Source: Pilasporangium apinafurcum (Eukaryota; Oomycota; Peronosporomycetes; Pythiales; Pythiaceae). From it: DNA of 30,704 nucleotides. This document shows, piece by piece, positions 1,158 through 27,858 of this stretch (positions are counted from its first letter, which is position 1; every line of letters begins with the position of its first letter). Location of the stretch: contig BCKE01000072.1 of assembly GCA_001600495.1 (NCBI GenBank), positions 52,123-82,826 of the forward strand. Reading direction: 5' to 3'. Made by a program: the position numbers and the translations under genes. Below the pieces are notes generated by a model. It searched no databases. It was not told the origin of the DNA and worked only from the letters and a program-made list of their open reading frames with translations.

Positions 1158-2936
1158 TCACAAAAATGAACGCATCCCAATCACCATACACATGACAATA
1201 GCAAGAGCGTAGGATCCGATACCACTCGTCTCTGCACTAGCAACAGAAGAAGACGAACCGGCTGCATCATCACCATCACCAGAGCTGCTACTGATCACTC
1301 CATCTACACCAAACAGCACGGTCTGCACTGCATTTGCTGGTAATGTGATTGCAATCTGCCGTTGCTGTGCTGATAGACTTATTTTGATGCTCTTTTCCGC
1401 TGCATCACGGTTTGATAGCACGATCGCCAAGAGCCCTTCAGGTGTAACGAACGCCACTTTGTCGACGTTTTCCAAGTCGGACTCTGCAGCGTCACTCACA
1501 TTCAGCGCCACACGCACAGATCCGGGTGTGATAAACTTGGAGAAATGGCCCATGATGTAGTACATTGGCTGTTTATAAAACTCTTGCAGCCCTTCTTCAT
1601 CAATGAGAATCGGCGCATCGACAAAGTTCTGTGCCCAATTCGGTCCGCCGTTGGTGTCCAGCACCAAGTTCCAGTCAGTCCACCCTGCAGCAAAGTTGGC
1701 CAAGTCGTTGATAATGTCTCTTGCGTAGATTTCCGCGCGCCACCATGTCACATTGTACTGTAACACGGCTGTGCCAGCACCGGTGCCGATGCCAGCGAGT
1801 AAATAACCCGCACATGCTTCCGTCGGGAGGATGAACAGATCAGGATATGCTTCATGAAACGTCGCGAGGTCAGCAAAGTTCCCATAGGTGTCCAAGATGA
1901 AATCTAAATCCTTGTACCAATGCACACCAACACCGGAAACGTACTGTAGTGCTTCTTCGTCCACAAGGGATGCATTCCAGCTCAAGATGTTATCCTTTTG
2001 GTCGTCCAAAATCATAATCTTCACATCAGGGTGATTCGTTGCCAACATGGGGCCAAGGTCTTTCTTAAGGAAATCGCGTTCCGTCTCGGCATCAAACCGC
2101 AAACTCTGCCATTCATTCAGCGTGATAGGTTGCTTCACCGGCTCATTCTGCGTCGTAAGTCCCCAGATCTTGATGCCTTCTGCTTCATAAGCAGAAAGAA
2201 ACTTGGAATAGTAAAGTGCCAGTGCCTGCCAGTATTCGCCACCAGGAGAGCCTTGCAATTCACAATTGAGTGTCGTATTCTCGGTCGTCATCCACGCCGG
2301 AGGCGCCCAGGAAGACGCAAACAGCGTGACGTTCCGCTCGGTCGTGTTGAGTGCGCGGTGGATGAATGCGATCTTGCTCGTGTTGCTGGATTTGTCAACA
2401 TCAATGGAGAAATGTTCCATCTCGAAATCATCCACAACGTCGTTGTATGAGTAAATATACTCGGAGAAATCGGTCGATGCGATCGGAATGCGACCAAGTG
2501 TATATTGGAGACCGTTGGCACCATAATATGCATCCACAATCAGCTGCTGAAGCTGCTCATTCATCTTGTAGACGTTTATAGAAGAAGCGTCGGTGAACGC
2601 GCCGCCAAACCCAATGATTTCCTGGTATGTCTTTGTTGTGTCGATCACAAGGTCGGCGTTCTCATCACTTGCTAACTCTTCACTGGGAAGCGTGGAGTAC
2701 GCCAGTCGATCACCTGCTTGTGATGTCTGAAAGACACCAACGGTGTCGTCTGCGAGTGTCTGATACTCATCGGTGATCTCATCGCAGCTGGTGACGTTAC
2801 AGACGCATGTGCCTTCGATCTCCTGTTGAAACCGGTTGGACCAGGAGGAACATGTGGCTTCAACAGTAGGAGAAGCCAACAGAAGAAGAGAAAGAAACAG
2901 CGGAGACGTCCTCATGAAGGGCTGGGTGCTGCGCAT
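1158..2936 (-). CDS. GH30 glucosylceramidase (GBA1-like), copy 2, probable GPI anchor
   Basis: A single-exon gene of 592 codons. The family hydrolyses the beta-glucosidic bond of glucosylceramide by a retaining mechanism. Signal peptide: residues 1-27, with a Leu-rich core at 12-20; Met8 is an alternative start. An N-terminal Cys cluster (CVCNVTSCDE) and GGAFTDAS near 111 are typical of GBA1-like GH30. The acid/base is Glu265 in TTQNEP and the nucleophile Glu373 in LPTEAC, both present. The C-terminus has a Ser/Gly/Asp-rich spacer (about 549-572) followed by a hydrophobic end (SYALAIVMCMVIGM) after small residues, the layout of a GPI-attachment signal, so the enzyme is probably held on the cell surface or wall. 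Many N-x-S/T sites are present. It lies between copy 1 and copy 3 in the same direction. Family call is sure; the substrate is inferred. Confidence 0.95.
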   Translation of the reverse strand: MRSTQPFMRTSPLFLSLLLLASPTVEATCSSWSNRFQQEIEGTCVCNVTSCDEITDEYQTLADDTVGVFQTSQAGDRLAYSTLPSEELASDENADLVIDTTKTYQEIIGFGGAFTDASSINVYKMNEQLQQLIVDAYYGANGLQYTLGRIPIASTDFSEYIYSYNDVVDDFEMEHFSIDVDKSSNTSKIAFIHRALNTTERNVTLFASSWAPPAWMTTENTTLNCELQGSPGGEYWQALALYYSKFLSAYEAEGIKIWGLTTQNEPVKQPITLNEWQSLRFDAETERDFLKKDLGPMLATNHPDVKIMILDDQKDNILSWNASLVDEEALQYVSGVGVHWYKDLDFILDTYGNFADLATFHEAYPDLFILPTEACAGYLLAGIGTGAGTAVLQYNVTWWRAEIYARDIINDLANFAAGWTDWNLVLDTNGGPNWAQNFVDAPILIDEEGLQEFYKQPMYYIMGHFSKFITPGSVRVALNVSDAAESDLENVDKVAFVTPEGLLAIVLSNRDAAEKSIKISLSAQQRQIAITLPANAVQTVLFGVDGVISSSSGDGDDAAGSSSSVASAETSGIGSYALAIVMCMVIGMRSFL

Positions 2937-3509
2937 GGCTGCTCCCTTCTTGTGCAGTAGGTGGCGAATTCAGTTGTGCGTGACATGAGAGTTGGTTGGG
3001 GGAGCAGACCGAACATGAGGGTCAGTCTGTGACTTGGAACTGCAAGTACCACAGGTCATCAATTGGGACCTATGCATAGACTAATCAATGCGGATTTAAT
3101 AGAAATTAATAAACTGTTTAATATGATTTTTTATAGTTAGCGCAGGCTTAATAAGTAATGCGGACTTAGCTGATACAGGTCAATGACAAGGAAATCCTAC
3201 TGTGTTGTGTCTGTTGGATTTGCATCTTCATCTTTCCCACATGCACACAGTAGCGGTAATGCTTATTGGTTTACATCGATATACGACCACTTTACTCTTC
3301 TACAAGGTGAAAAAAGATGATTTTTTGATCTGTTCAATATCTTTCTTTTTTAATTGCTTCTACAAACGCGATGATAAAGCTGGGGAGGTAGATACTCGCA
3401 CTCACATGTATTTTTTGTTGAACAATTGTTTGTTGTTTGCATCATGACTGCATGTGGAAATGAACGAATACGTGCACAATGCAGCTACAGGATTTCATTT
3501 GTCGGGGGC
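2937..3509. other. Intergenic, between GH30 copies 2 and 3
   Basis: No gene that I can support. It serves as promoter of copy 2 and 3' flank of copy 3. Loose repeats of the form AATGCGGAYTTA occur at about 3089 and 3161. A plus-strand open frame at 3202-3447 has Phe/Leu-rich low-complexity translation and starts without ATG support. Confidence 0.5.
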
Positions 3510-5150
3510 TTAGCATGATGCACGCTTCGTCGCACCAATAACGATTGTCTGAACGGAATTGGCTGGGATCGTGATGTTGGCATGGCGCGACTCCACCGAC
3601 AGACTCAGCGTAAACGTGTGGTCGGTCGTGTCGCGGTTGTTGAGCACCACGACCAATTGGTTGTCAGGTGTCACGAATGCCACCTTATCCACGTTCTTCA
3701 ACGTCGTTGTGACAGCCGTGCTGGTGGTCAGAGCTACGCGTACCGAATTAGGGGTGAGGAACTTAGAGACGTGACCCATGACGTAGTACATTGGTTGCTT
3801 GTAAAATTCTGCTCCGCTCTCTTCGTCGATTAGAATCGGGGAATCGACATAGTTTTCCACCCAGGTGGGACCACCTGTCGAGTCCAACACCAGGTTCCAG
3901 TCCGTCCATCCGCTGGCATAATTGGCCAAGTCGTTGATGATATCACGAGCATAAATCTCGCCACGTTTCCACACCACCGACGGTTGCAAGAGCTTAACAC
4001 CGGCGCCGGTGCCAAGCGGCTCAATCAAGTATCCTTCACACGCTTCTGTAGCCAAGATGAACAGGTCGGGGTTCGCTGTGTGGAACGTGGTGAGCGCTGC
4101 AAAGTTGCCCAGCGTCGACGTGACAAAATCCAGATTCTTATACCAGTGCACGCCAATTCCCGACACGTATTTCCGCGCATCGGCATCGTTCAGCGCAGCG
4201 TTCCAGCTGTTGGTCAAGTCCTTCTGATCATCGAGTATGATGATTTTCAAATCGGGATGATCTGACGCCATTCTAGGTCCGAGATCCAATTTGATGAAGT
4301 CGCGTTCAGTGGCAGCATCGAACCGCATACTCTGCCAATACTTGAACGCAGTCTGGTAATTGGGCTCGTTCTGCGTCGTCAGCGCCCAGATGTTAACGCC
4401 CTCAGCTTCATATGCAGTGACGAACTTGGAATAATAGAGTGCCANTGCCTCCCAATACTCCTCACCCGGTGAACCGATCAACGCACAGTTGATGGTTGTG
4501 TTCTCCGTCGTCATCCATGCTGGTGGTGCCCAAGAAGATGCAAACATATTGATCTCGCGTTTCGTAGTACTCAATGCCCTCTTGATGAGGTTGAGTTTGT
4601 TTGAATTCGGCGACTTGTCGACATCAATCGAAAAATGCTCCATTGCCAAGTCACCCTCGACGTCGTTGTAGGAGTAGATGCTGGTAGAGAAATCAGTCGA
4701 AGCAATGGGGATTCGTCCAATCGTGTACTGCAGGCCGTTCGCTGAGAAGTACGCGTCTACCACCTTTTGCTGCAAGTCTTCATTGAGCTTGTAGACATTA
4801 ATTGCTGATGCATCGGTGAAGGCGCCACCAAAGCCGATGATCTTCTGGTATGTCGTGCTGGTGTCGATGACAATGTCTGCATCCTCAACCGTGGCATCTT
4901 CCAGATCTACCGTAGAATAAGCCAAGCGATCGCCAGCCAGTGAAGTCTGGTAGACGCCCACTTCCGTTTCGGTAAGGAATAGATGTCCGTTGTAGATTTC
5001 ATCACAGTCCGAGGCCGTGCATACACAAACACCTTCGATGTTCTGCTGGTACTTGTTGGACCAGTTAGAGCAGGCACCTGAAGCGAGCGACAGTGAGTGT
5101 GCTGTCAGTAACGACAGCGCGTACGCGAACAGAGGCTTGACGACCAACAT
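3510..5150 (-). CDS. GH30 glucosylceramidase (GBA1-like), copy 3, secreted
   Basis: Single exon. The frame is open to 5186, but codon 1 there is TTG; the first ATG is at 5150 and gives a clean signal peptide (MLVVKPLFAYALSLL, cleavage after a Ser/Ala/Gly stretch), so I start there (546 aa). The body aligns throughout with copy 2: CVCTASDCDE, GGAFTDAS, FASSWAPPAWMTTENT, acid/base Glu in TTQNEP and nucleophile Glu in LATEAC (residues 262 and 369 from this start). Unlike copy 2 it stops at about ATKRASC with no Ser-rich spacer or hydrophobic tail, so it should be soluble and secreted. Base 4445 is N: the codon is NTG, which is Leu, Met or Val whatever the base (Leu in copy 2), so the frame is not affected. 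An Inr-like motif lies about 32 bp upstream of the start. Confidence 0.94.
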   Translation of the reverse strand: MLVVKPLFAYALSLLTAHSLSLASGACSNWSNKYQQNIEGVCVCTASDCDEIYNGHLFLTETEVGVYQTSLAGDRLAYSTVDLEDATVEDADIVIDTSTTYQKIIGFGGAFTDASAINVYKLNEDLQQKVVDAYFSANGLQYTIGRIPIASTDFSTSIYSYNDVEGDLAMEHFSIDVDKSPNSNKLNLIKRALSTTKREINMFASSWAPPAWMTTENTTINCALIGSPGEEYWEAXALYYSKFVTAYEAEGVNIWALTTQNEPNYQTAFKYWQSMRFDAATERDFIKLDLGPRMASDHPDLKIIILDDQKDLTNSWNAALNDADARKYVSGIGVHWYKNLDFVTSTLGNFAALTTFHTANPDLFILATEACEGYLIEPLGTGAGVKLLQPSVVWKRGEIYARDIINDLANYASGWTDWNLVLDSTGGPTWVENYVDSPILIDEESGAEFYKQPMYYVMGHVSKFLTPNSVRVALTTSTAVTTTLKNVDKVAFVTPDNQLVVVLNNRDTTDHTFTLSLSVESRHANITIPANSVQTIVIGATKRASC

Positions 5151-5181
5151 TTGGAAGGTTCTCTCTTCAACGTAGGTTGTT

Positions 5182-5190
5182 GGCAAATGA
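5182..5190 (-). promoter_or_regulatory. Oomycete initiator (Inr) of GH30 copy 3
   Basis: On the minus strand this reads TCATTTGCC, close to the oomycete core-promoter initiator (TCAYTYY type), about 32-40 bp upstream of the ATG at 5150. It overlaps the TTG that would otherwise extend the frame, which supports the 5150 start. Motif match only. Confidence 0.4.
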
Positions 5191-24964: not shown

Positions 24965-27858
24965 TCAGTCGTTGAGATTTTTCTCGTTCAGCAGTGACTC
25001 GGTGTAGAACGAATCGTTCCCACGCAGCGCTCGCTTCCTCAACTCCACTACAAAGAAAGCAACAAACGCGCCAAAGCCAAAGAGGGTGACTACTGCACCA
25101 ATGAAACTGGCTGCACGCTTGGACACACTATTATGATGTTTCTTATTTCCCTTGACTGTGCGACCGAATGCAAATGCAACATCACCATCTGCATCCACAT
25201 CCGCGACATTCCCATGGATCGCCCGCATCAGCACATCGTCCTGTGTGTGGAGCCGGCTCTCGTGGACAACCGCGCGGTTGTCCTGCGTCTCGCTCTTGTA
25301 TGTCGGACTCTCGTGGCTCTGTAACGACGGATACAACTGCCAGACTGCGTGGATATCCGAGACAGCAAGCAGCTCCCGTTGCCCCATTTTGCTCAGCACT
25401 TTCAAGCGCTCAATGGGGTCGGCGATGATCGGAAAAATGCTCTGGCACCATTCTGGGGAACTGAGTTCGTTTTGTCCGTTTTGTTCAACCCCCAGTTCCG
25501 TGAACTGCATGAACGCGCTCGCAGGATGGTGCATGATACTGAAGAAATCGTACGGAACTTCCAGAGCACTCTTGCTATTGTTCATGTCTTCGACGATGAA
25601 GTAGCTGCGTTTCGTCTCGGGCAGACACTCCCATGCGATCCGCACATGGTCGTCGCGGTCCAGGCGGTCGATTGTATGGTGCAGTCCGATGGCGTGCAGT
25701 AGTACATGCATAACGTTGCCCAAGCCACAATCCGCCGAGACTCCCAACAGCTGCTCGCCTCCAATCCGTCCGATATACGAGAAACAGGAAGATGAAGTGG
25801 CTTTGATCGTCACGTAATCGTGTGCACAATTGTGGTCACGGAGGCAGTCATTGTCTTTGCATCGTTGAAAGCTGAAATATGTGACTTCAGCGACGTGATT
25901 CATGGCGTTCCGCACCAAACGATCAAACATTTGTGCACTGGCGTCGATCTGGAAACACATCGTCGCGTCTTTCCAGCGATGGTCGCGTTCGGAATTGTAG
26001 TAGCCATGAAGTACGTGTCCAAACTGCCCATCGCCTCCATCTGCGTTCTTCCATATCTTGAGTTCACCAATGGCGATATCCCCTTGGATGATCATGATGT
26101 TGTCCTCTGCCAGCACGTAGTCATATTCGATACCTTTGAATGACACAACGTCTTCGTCATGGCGTTTTATAGTTGGTGTAACTTCTTCCACCGGCAAGCG
26201 GCACTCGCCACTCAACGGATTCAACACCAACGGCGCACGACACGCGGCTGCCTGCTCTTCAGGAGTCACCCCATCATCACTTGAAGGGACACAAACCATT
26301 TCTTCATCGTCTTCGTTCGTCATCTCGTATCCGTGGTAACATGTGCAGTCTTCATAGTCCATCAGTGGCCAGTTTGTGGCAAACGAATCGAGTGGACACT
26401 GTGAAAACGGCACTAACACATTGTCCGTCGGTGGCTGATTGCATTCAACTACGCGCTTCTTCTTCTCACGCCGGCGTTGCCGTAGACTCTTGTGACCAGC
26501 TTCCGCCTCTTCCACATCCGTTTCCTTTGTCATACTGATGCCGTAGATGCATTGACAGTTGGCCTTGTTCTGTAATGGCCAGTGTTTGAGGAATGCATGT
26601 TTCGGGCACCCGTTGTTGTCCGTTAAGAACCACTCGAGACACCCCTCAAGCGATTCGTCGCGGTAGAATCCACGCGCACAATCGCAATCGTCAAAAGACG
26701 TCTCGACGTGTGTCAGCTCCGAAGCTTTGAACGAATGTGGGGGGCAACTGTATGTAGACATGTGCACGCATTTCATGTCTGGGGTTTTCCATCCGTACCC
26801 AGGCAGGCACTGACATTGTTCAACCGAGTGAGCAAACGCAGCCACAGGCCTGGAATACGGTGGACATTCGAAAGGCTCTTGCTCAGCATCGTCGATTTGT
26901 TCATATTCTCTTCCATCTTCAGACACGTTCACCTCATCGCACGATTGTGTCATCTCGTTGCGTCGATAGCGTTTGCTCTCCAAACACTCGCAGTCTTTGA
27001 AACTCATGGGTCGTTCACCTAGTGGCAAGTCGCGACGCTTGAACGAGTTGAGTGGACATACAAATGCCGCTTGTTCACGTTTACATTCATTCATGACAGT
27101 GCGCACAAATCCCCAGTCACAATGGCAATCCGCGAACGAGTGCGGACGCATGTTAGCGGCAGGAGAGGAATTTAGTGGACACGTATAGTGGTCCATGAAC
27201 AGGCACTCGCCTGATTGGTCGTTCTTCTCGTACGGATCCACGCAGTCACAGTCTGCGAGCGACGTGACATCGCGGCGGTGCTTCTTCCTGAAGTAGTTGC
27301 CTGCGCGTGGGCATCTTCGTAATTGACAACGGCCGGTGGTGTTGTCCTTCGTATATGGATGCTGACAATCACAGTCGGCGATCGATTTGGCTGTCTTTAG
27401 TCCCGCCTTGAGCATGTACCGACCTTTGCATTGGAAGATCGCAGCCGTGCACGCCTTGTGTGTGTCGTCTCGCGTGTAGCCTTCCAGGCATTCACAGTCC
27501 GCGAAACTAAGTGGGTGTAAACGGATCGCAGCTGATCCTTCTGGGCAACGGAAGAGCGTTGATATTCCTGCTTGCTGCCCCATGTTGGCGTTATTGTTGT
27601 CAATTAGCGGGGAGATATTACCCTGACAAAGACAATCTTCCAGCGATTCCATGTCACGAGGAAGTAGCATTGCTTCACATGGAGAAGGACACACTAAGCA
27701 ACGGCAGCAACAGAACATGTGAAGCCTTAGAACAGCCCCACAGCGAGCTAGATGTGGTAGTACAATTTACCATAGAACGCAGCATGAGAGCTTGGAAGGA
27801 GGATACTGGTCGTGCATATTGCATACGAGAGAAGCCCCCAAGCGCGCCGAGTCCACAT
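24965..27858 (-). CDS. Type I membrane protein: Cys-rich repeats plus inactive-looking astacin domain
   Basis: Exons 27771-27858 and 24965-27693, intron 27694-27770 (77 bp, GTAAAT...TGCTTAG), 938 aa. Exon 1 gives the signal peptide (MWTRRAWGLLSYAICTTSIL, cleavage near HAA). Residues about 31-500 hold some ten repeats of 35-50 residues of the form CPxxS...FxDCxCxxGY...C, like the ephrin-receptor/GCC2-GCC3 type. An M12A astacin-like domain follows (about 535-820): CFSYIGRIGGEQ, the zinc site HVLLHAIGLHH (692-702), then RLDRDDHV, and Met-turn SIMHHP. The three zinc His remain, but the catalytic Glu of HExxH is Val693, the Glu after the third His is Thr703, and the Met-turn Tyr is His752. One transmembrane helix (about 892-912) precedes a short basic cytosolic tail. 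Likely a secreted-side binding protein rather than a protease. Confidence 0.9.

Follow-up and report, generated by a model that had tools for sequence, protein, structure and literature searches.

The question raised by this locus is whether the minus-strand gene at positions 27858-24965 of the window (the whole 30,704-nt stretch of the oomycete Pilasporangium apinafurcum analysed here) encodes an astacin that has lost catalysis and, if so, what such a protein would do. A sequence-only reading had described it as an astacin-family pseudo-protease fused to about ten Cys-rich repeats and a membrane anchor. We consider it probable that the gene product, a membrane-anchored relative of the astacins, is dead as a catalyst, zymogen-like in form, and acts as a surface binding protein. 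Because it is homologous to astacins but is missing a residue that catalysis requires, it corresponds to the definition of an M12A non-peptidase homologue.

The domain matches the Astacin family (PF01400) with 92.5 bits, as compared to a cut-off of 22.5, and reads HVLLHAIGLHHT...SIMHH; all three zinc-binding histidines (H692, H696, and H702) are present and the predicted structure shows the astacin fold, in agreement with the sequence-only reading. The best NCBIfam model represents a bacterial astacin (99 bits, far under its cut-off of 300). Pfam at E up to 1 gave no reprolysin-type (M12B) domain; besides Astacin, a single unrelated family matched, with a score under its cut-off. The three hallmark changes reported earlier were confirmed as codons GTA (Val693, in place of the catalytic Glu), ACA (Thr703, in place of the Glu that follows the third zinc His), and CAT (His752, giving SIMHH instead of SIMHY).

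These positions were compared with astacins from two scans. The prokaryote-genome scan gave at least 591 pattern matches, of which 271 were confirmed and the best 80 of the 271 kept, representing 79 loci, and the viral-contig scan contributed five loci. The resulting alignment had 86 rows, including two paralogues from the same genome (L002 and L004; a third, L003, was dropped because it had no tblastn match), and the comparison set of 80 rows (75 prokaryote and five viral) excludes these paralogues and four Legionella loci. Each of the three zinc histidines and the Met-turn Met, all retained here, are present in 80/80 rows. The catalytic Glu is present in 79/80 rows, with Gln in one; the Glu after the third His is found in 76/80 and Thr in 4/80. 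The Tyr of SIMHY is present in 80/80 rows of a set picked mostly by a pattern allowing only Tyr or His at this site; His was thus permitted by the pattern, yet never seen. In a Bdellovibrionales astacin (L080) the motif is HQLLH, where Gln replaces the catalytic Glu, and both the HE that follows and SIMHY are kept. The astacins on five IMG/VR viral contigs (L087-L091) have HELGH or HEIGH and SIMHY intact; viral astacins are represented by one reovirus only in PMC9848320.

Thinning of the set at 80% identity left 70 rows and 30 columns conserved in at least 90% of them. The protein retains 25 of these 30 columns; the losses are Glu to Val, Glu to Thr, Tyr to His, Ile to Leu, and Ser to Ala, such that the three named sites are the only radical ones and the other two are conservative. 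The chance that five random losses include all three named columns is 0.0025, a figure that is indicative only, as the columns were noticed for differing and some conserved columns stem from the scan patterns. The catalytic Glu position lies outside both scan patterns and carries the inactivity claim; our confidence therefore did not change after the patterns were checked. Since astacins are described as requiring the catalytic Glu for its role as general base (PMC9848320), the loss of catalysis proposed by the sequence-only reading is well supported by this alignment, and the protein is very probably inactive as a peptidase, with Val693 carrying the argument and His752 coming second. That the loss took place under selection, as the sequence-only reading argued, has only indirect backing, from the uninterrupted frame and from the position of the radical losses at three functional sites.

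An active enzyme using an unusual mechanism would be consistent with the full set of zinc ligands, and an assembly error affecting these codons would also restore activity; both appear highly improbable, as the first would have to dispense with the required Glu (PMC9848320) and the second requires three separate codons to be wrong. No second gene copy was found in the assembly (36.5 Mb, 136 contigs). A recent loss of catalysis followed by drift, in which the remainder of the protein has not yet decayed, or a strain-specific allele, is unlikely. While the long branch of the domain, described below, would fit drift, the frame is open throughout its 939 codons, and the copy is thus not filled with stops, the sign of decay named by the sequence-only reading. 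The third-position guanine-plus-cytosine content of the part encoding the prodomain and catalytic domain (0.631) is within the 0.556-0.663 spanned by five genes nearby, the three named codons require at least four base changes (counted from the codons), and the losses among conserved columns are the few listed above.

Immediately N-terminal to the pseudo-catalytic domain, we identified an intact astacin prodomain, including the zinc-blocking aspartate (Asp568), which the sequence-only reading had missed; it had likewise not noted that the repeats are N-terminal or that Thr occurs at the third-His site in otherwise intact astacins. The prodomain Asp is present in 70/80 comparison astacins, Cys taking its place in 8/80, and the predicted structure has a per-residue confidence (predicted local distance difference test, pLDDT) of 86-91 across the blocks flanking the QGD motif. 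The three lost residues are described as ones that act in the mature enzyme. Among the comparison rows, six bacterial astacins (L026, L042, L047, L050, L074, and L083) have Cys for the prodomain Asp, like a cysteine switch; the Cys found at this site in L089 and L090 resembles, by eye, the signal cysteine of lipoproteins.

In the mechanism that we propose, zinc would be held by the three histidines, and peptide hydrolysis would not occur without the Glu base. The prodomain would probably remain lodged in the cleft, its Asp568 placed at the zinc, because the Glu base, the Glu that binds the liberated N-terminus, and the Tyr switch, all used by the mature enzyme, are gone, whereas the His, the Asp, and the Met-turn remain. 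A zymogen-locked state of this kind is possible, and we put it forward tentatively. A bolder version holds that the protein lost its mature-enzyme residues and kept its latent-state residues to become a locked-zymogen pseudoprotease, a receptor module permanently stapled by zinc that forms the base of a ten-repeat oomycete cell-surface arm; this we regard as rather doubtful. Within it, His752 and Asp568 would possibly serve as further zinc ligands.

Several observations weigh against a dead, zymogen-like protein. In VIA-align the lead of the zymogens consists of ties alone (Z differences <1), with the zymogen form of pro-meprin alpha placed twice (22.4 and 22.2) under mature enzymes, and Foldseek ranks mature BMP1 first and proastacin sixth; in addition, the input alignment of the predictor consisted of proenzymes, so that the pose of the prodomain is partly built in. 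The domain also forms the longest branch in a tree of 62 rows (3.43, as compared to a median of 0.88), which fits relaxed constraint as well. With regard to the conserved columns, 77/80 rows carry the SIMH pattern, whose Tyr position could be filled by no residue other than Tyr or His in the prokaryote scan; because SIMH was required, conservation of the Tyr in 80/80 rows and of the Met-turn is partly by construction. Outside the SIMH pattern there are 23 conserved columns, four of them lost, including two of those named (P 0.024); outside both patterns there are 18, three of them lost, and the catalytic Glu alone is a radical loss. The third-His pattern occurs in only 3/80 rows, and the choice of Glu or Thr at that site is therefore nearly free of scan choice (Glu in 73 and Thr in four of the remaining 77 rows). 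However, Thr703 alone fits an intact active site. Four astacins from Acidobacteriota (L014, L022, L027, and L032), which cluster in the tree, have Thr for the family-specific Glu with HExxH and SIMHY intact, and Thr703 is thus not diagnostic of lost activity. Of the three hallmarks, which the sequence-only reading had treated as joint evidence, Val693 thus weighs most and His752 next, and Thr703 is weak evidence on its own.

The product begins with a signal peptide and the ten four-Cys repeats; these are followed by the prodomain, the astacin domain, a single hydrophobic helix, and a tail of 24 residues. The repeats are about 40 residues long with four Cys each, and some contain inserts. Ten [DNQ]CxC motifs were observed, whereas 10,000 shuffles averaged 0.52 and never exceeded four, and in leave-one-out hidden Markov model (HMM) tests nine of the ten repeats scored above all 999 shuffles and repeat 1 above 997 of 999; this excess and these tests show that the ten repeats (about ten in the sequence-only reading) are a real feature rather than a chance pattern. 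A scan of the full-length product against Pfam at E up to 1 named no Cys-rich family for the repeats and included no Ephrin_rec_like (PF07699) match; a Ble-like_N match at residues 335-354 of the open reading frame was below its cut-off. Identification of the repeats as Ephrin_rec_like was rejected (hhalign probability of 8.7% versus 16 of the 21 such matches of the same genome). Single repeats matched EGF_Mua-3, EGF_Tme5, and cEGF weakly (E 0.003-0.009, one repeat per profile), with the EGF_Tme5 and cEGF matches falling below their cut-offs, among the profiles whose cut-offs were shown; these matches suggest that the repeat may be a shortened epidermal growth factor (EGF)-like unit. Nothing else in the same genome matched the 509-residue repeat region at E up to 1, and the single match in a PDB profile search was at chance level (E 0.8). 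Structure prediction gave a poor result for four repeats, with a mean pLDDT of 46.3.

The signal peptide, judged by eye (its highest 19-residue hydropathy is just 1.27), and the lone C-terminal helix, the one strong hydrophobic segment (residues 889-915) and the membrane anchor named by the sequence-only reading, would place the repeats, the prodomain, and the pseudo-catalytic domain outside the cell, and the product is quite likely a cell-surface type I protein. A polybasic RQRRREKKKR within repeat 9 is a possible convertase site, and cleavage there would shed the outer arm. The receptor or adhesin layout proposed earlier is plausible. By analogy with membrane-anchored pseudo-ADAMs, the arm of Cys-rich repeats may work together with the locked domain as a module for binding or adhesion at the surface, a role that is our best guess and somewhat favoured.

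The genome contains three other astacins (L002-L004), all with HELGH or HEIGH, HE, and SIMHY intact and 20-25% identical to the protein; they share its astacin domain, whereas the repeats were not seen by eye in their open frames. The dead domain could be a decoy or sponge that traps inhibitors or substrates of the organism's own active astacins, an idea that appeared in the sequence-only reading and found no support of its own. These three intact-motif astacins and a conserved stretch of the domain, which we take to lie on the cleft side, would suit such a role. An oomycete precedent exists in the inactive paralogue PsXLP1, described as a bodyguard decoy (PMC5814044). However, an identity of 20-25% is too low for an obvious mimic, the protein appears to be membrane-anchored with a large repeat arm, and a resident prodomain would block the cleft; a decoy role is possible, but it seems improbable and fits less well than surface binding or adhesion.

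A free quick tree (the 62-row tree) separates the domain from the three paralogues. In a second tree of 52 rows, from which nine long-branch or viral loci were removed, holding the domain and paralogues together gave a log-likelihood 9.04 above that of the free tree and was not rejected by the approximately unbiased (AU) test (p 0.708). A common origin with the paralogues is thus possible and even somewhat favoured, and we do not claim horizontal transfer. Scans of viral_contigs with the astacin domain and with the repeats yielded no orthologues, and among the matches listed by the genome_contigs scan there were only prokaryote records.

The gene model, read from sequence without RNA, has two exons (Table 1). 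Exon 2 contains 909 open codons including the stop, within a minus-strand open frame that spans 24965-27718, and the remaining five frames have 21-43 stops each. The predicted product has 939 codons including the stop (938 residues plus stop, reported as 939 aa). A Pfam family was found in six of ten neighbouring frames, the other four having none at E up to 0.001; a carnitine acyltransferase lies upstream, and a histidine phosphatase, a sugar-phosphate transporter, VPS11, and a GH30 pair are located further away. The GH30 glycoside hydrolase genes are in tandem on the minus strand (1158-5186), with an ambiguous codon in the second. The assembly has 50 elicitin matches, as would be expected of an oomycete.

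Table 1. Features of the astacin-like gene, with positions in the window
Feature	Coordinates	Strand	Detail or basis
Exon 1, with the start codon and the signal peptide MWTRRAWGLLSYAICTTSILLPSSHA...	27771..27858	-	translation and GT donor; splice predicted from sequence
Intron, 77 nt, GT..AG, GTAAAT...TTGCTTAG	27694..27770	-	predicted from sequence, in-frame join
Exon 2, through stop codon	24965..27693	-	open frame
Ten four-Cys repeats, consensus CPxxS...SxADCxCxxGY...C; repeat 1 degenerate	26267..27679	-	motif shuffles and HMM tests
Polybasic RQRRREKKKR, convertase-like (predicted)	26450..26494	-	sequence
Astacin prodomain with QGD motif, aa 545-590, limits approximate	26012..26149	-	alignment with prokaryote astacin prodomains
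Asp568, aspartate-switch residue	26078..26080	-	aligned to family Asp
Astacin pseudo-catalytic domain	25328..26011	-	PF01400 and predicted fold
Zinc-site motif HVLLHAIGLHHTIDRLDRD, aa 692-710	25652..25708	-	translation and alignment
Val693, codon GTA	25703-25705	-	in place of catalytic Glu of HExxH
Thr703, codon ACA	25673-25675	-	in place of family-specific Glu after third His
Met-turn SIMHH	25526..25540	-	His752 (CAT, 25526-25528) replaces zinc-ligand Tyr
Single membrane helix	25040..25114	-	19-residue mean hydropathy reaching 2.46
24-residue tail RKRALRGNDSFYTESLLNEKNLND, predicted cytoplasmic	24968..25039	-	sequence

The term "inactive astacin" was found nowhere in the literature searched, and earlier papers may still describe M12A non-peptidase homologues; no priority is claimed for this protein as a pseudo-astacin. 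A 2024 review of pseudopeptidases has no astacin in the parts of its tables covered here (PMC11266112). A 2023 survey of astacins had its curated hits verified as having intact motifs (PMC9848320), and dead astacin genes may thus have been filtered out. Pseudo-metalloproteases are well known among the ADAMs, and an astacin that has lost catalysis with its latency machinery still in place would illustrate a route from zymogen to receptor; it also gives oomycete biologists a predicted surface protein for ligand testing.

The protein has in common with M12A astacins (crayfish astacin, the meprins, BMP1/tolloid, and hatching enzymes) PF01400 and the fold, the three zinc His, RxDRD, the Met of the Met-turn, and a prodomain with the Asp switch, and it differs from them in lacking the catalytic Glu, the family-specific Glu, and the Tyr ligand. 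Meprin beta likewise has an astacin domain on a single-pass membrane protein; however, meprin beta is active, and its extra domains and membrane helix come after the catalytic domain. More generally, the extra repeats of the protein described here precede the prodomain, whereas the extra domains of the meprins and BMP1/tolloid follow the catalytic domain (PMC9848320). Pseudo-ADAMs (M12B) are likewise membrane-anchored metzincin relatives with Cys-rich ectodomain parts that have lost the catalytic Glu, some of which assemble synaptic complexes via surface loops (PMC11266112). They belong to another family with another domain order, and seven of the nine M12 pseudopeptidases listed lose zinc His as well; ADAM7 and ADAM29, like the protein described here, retain all three (PMC11266112).
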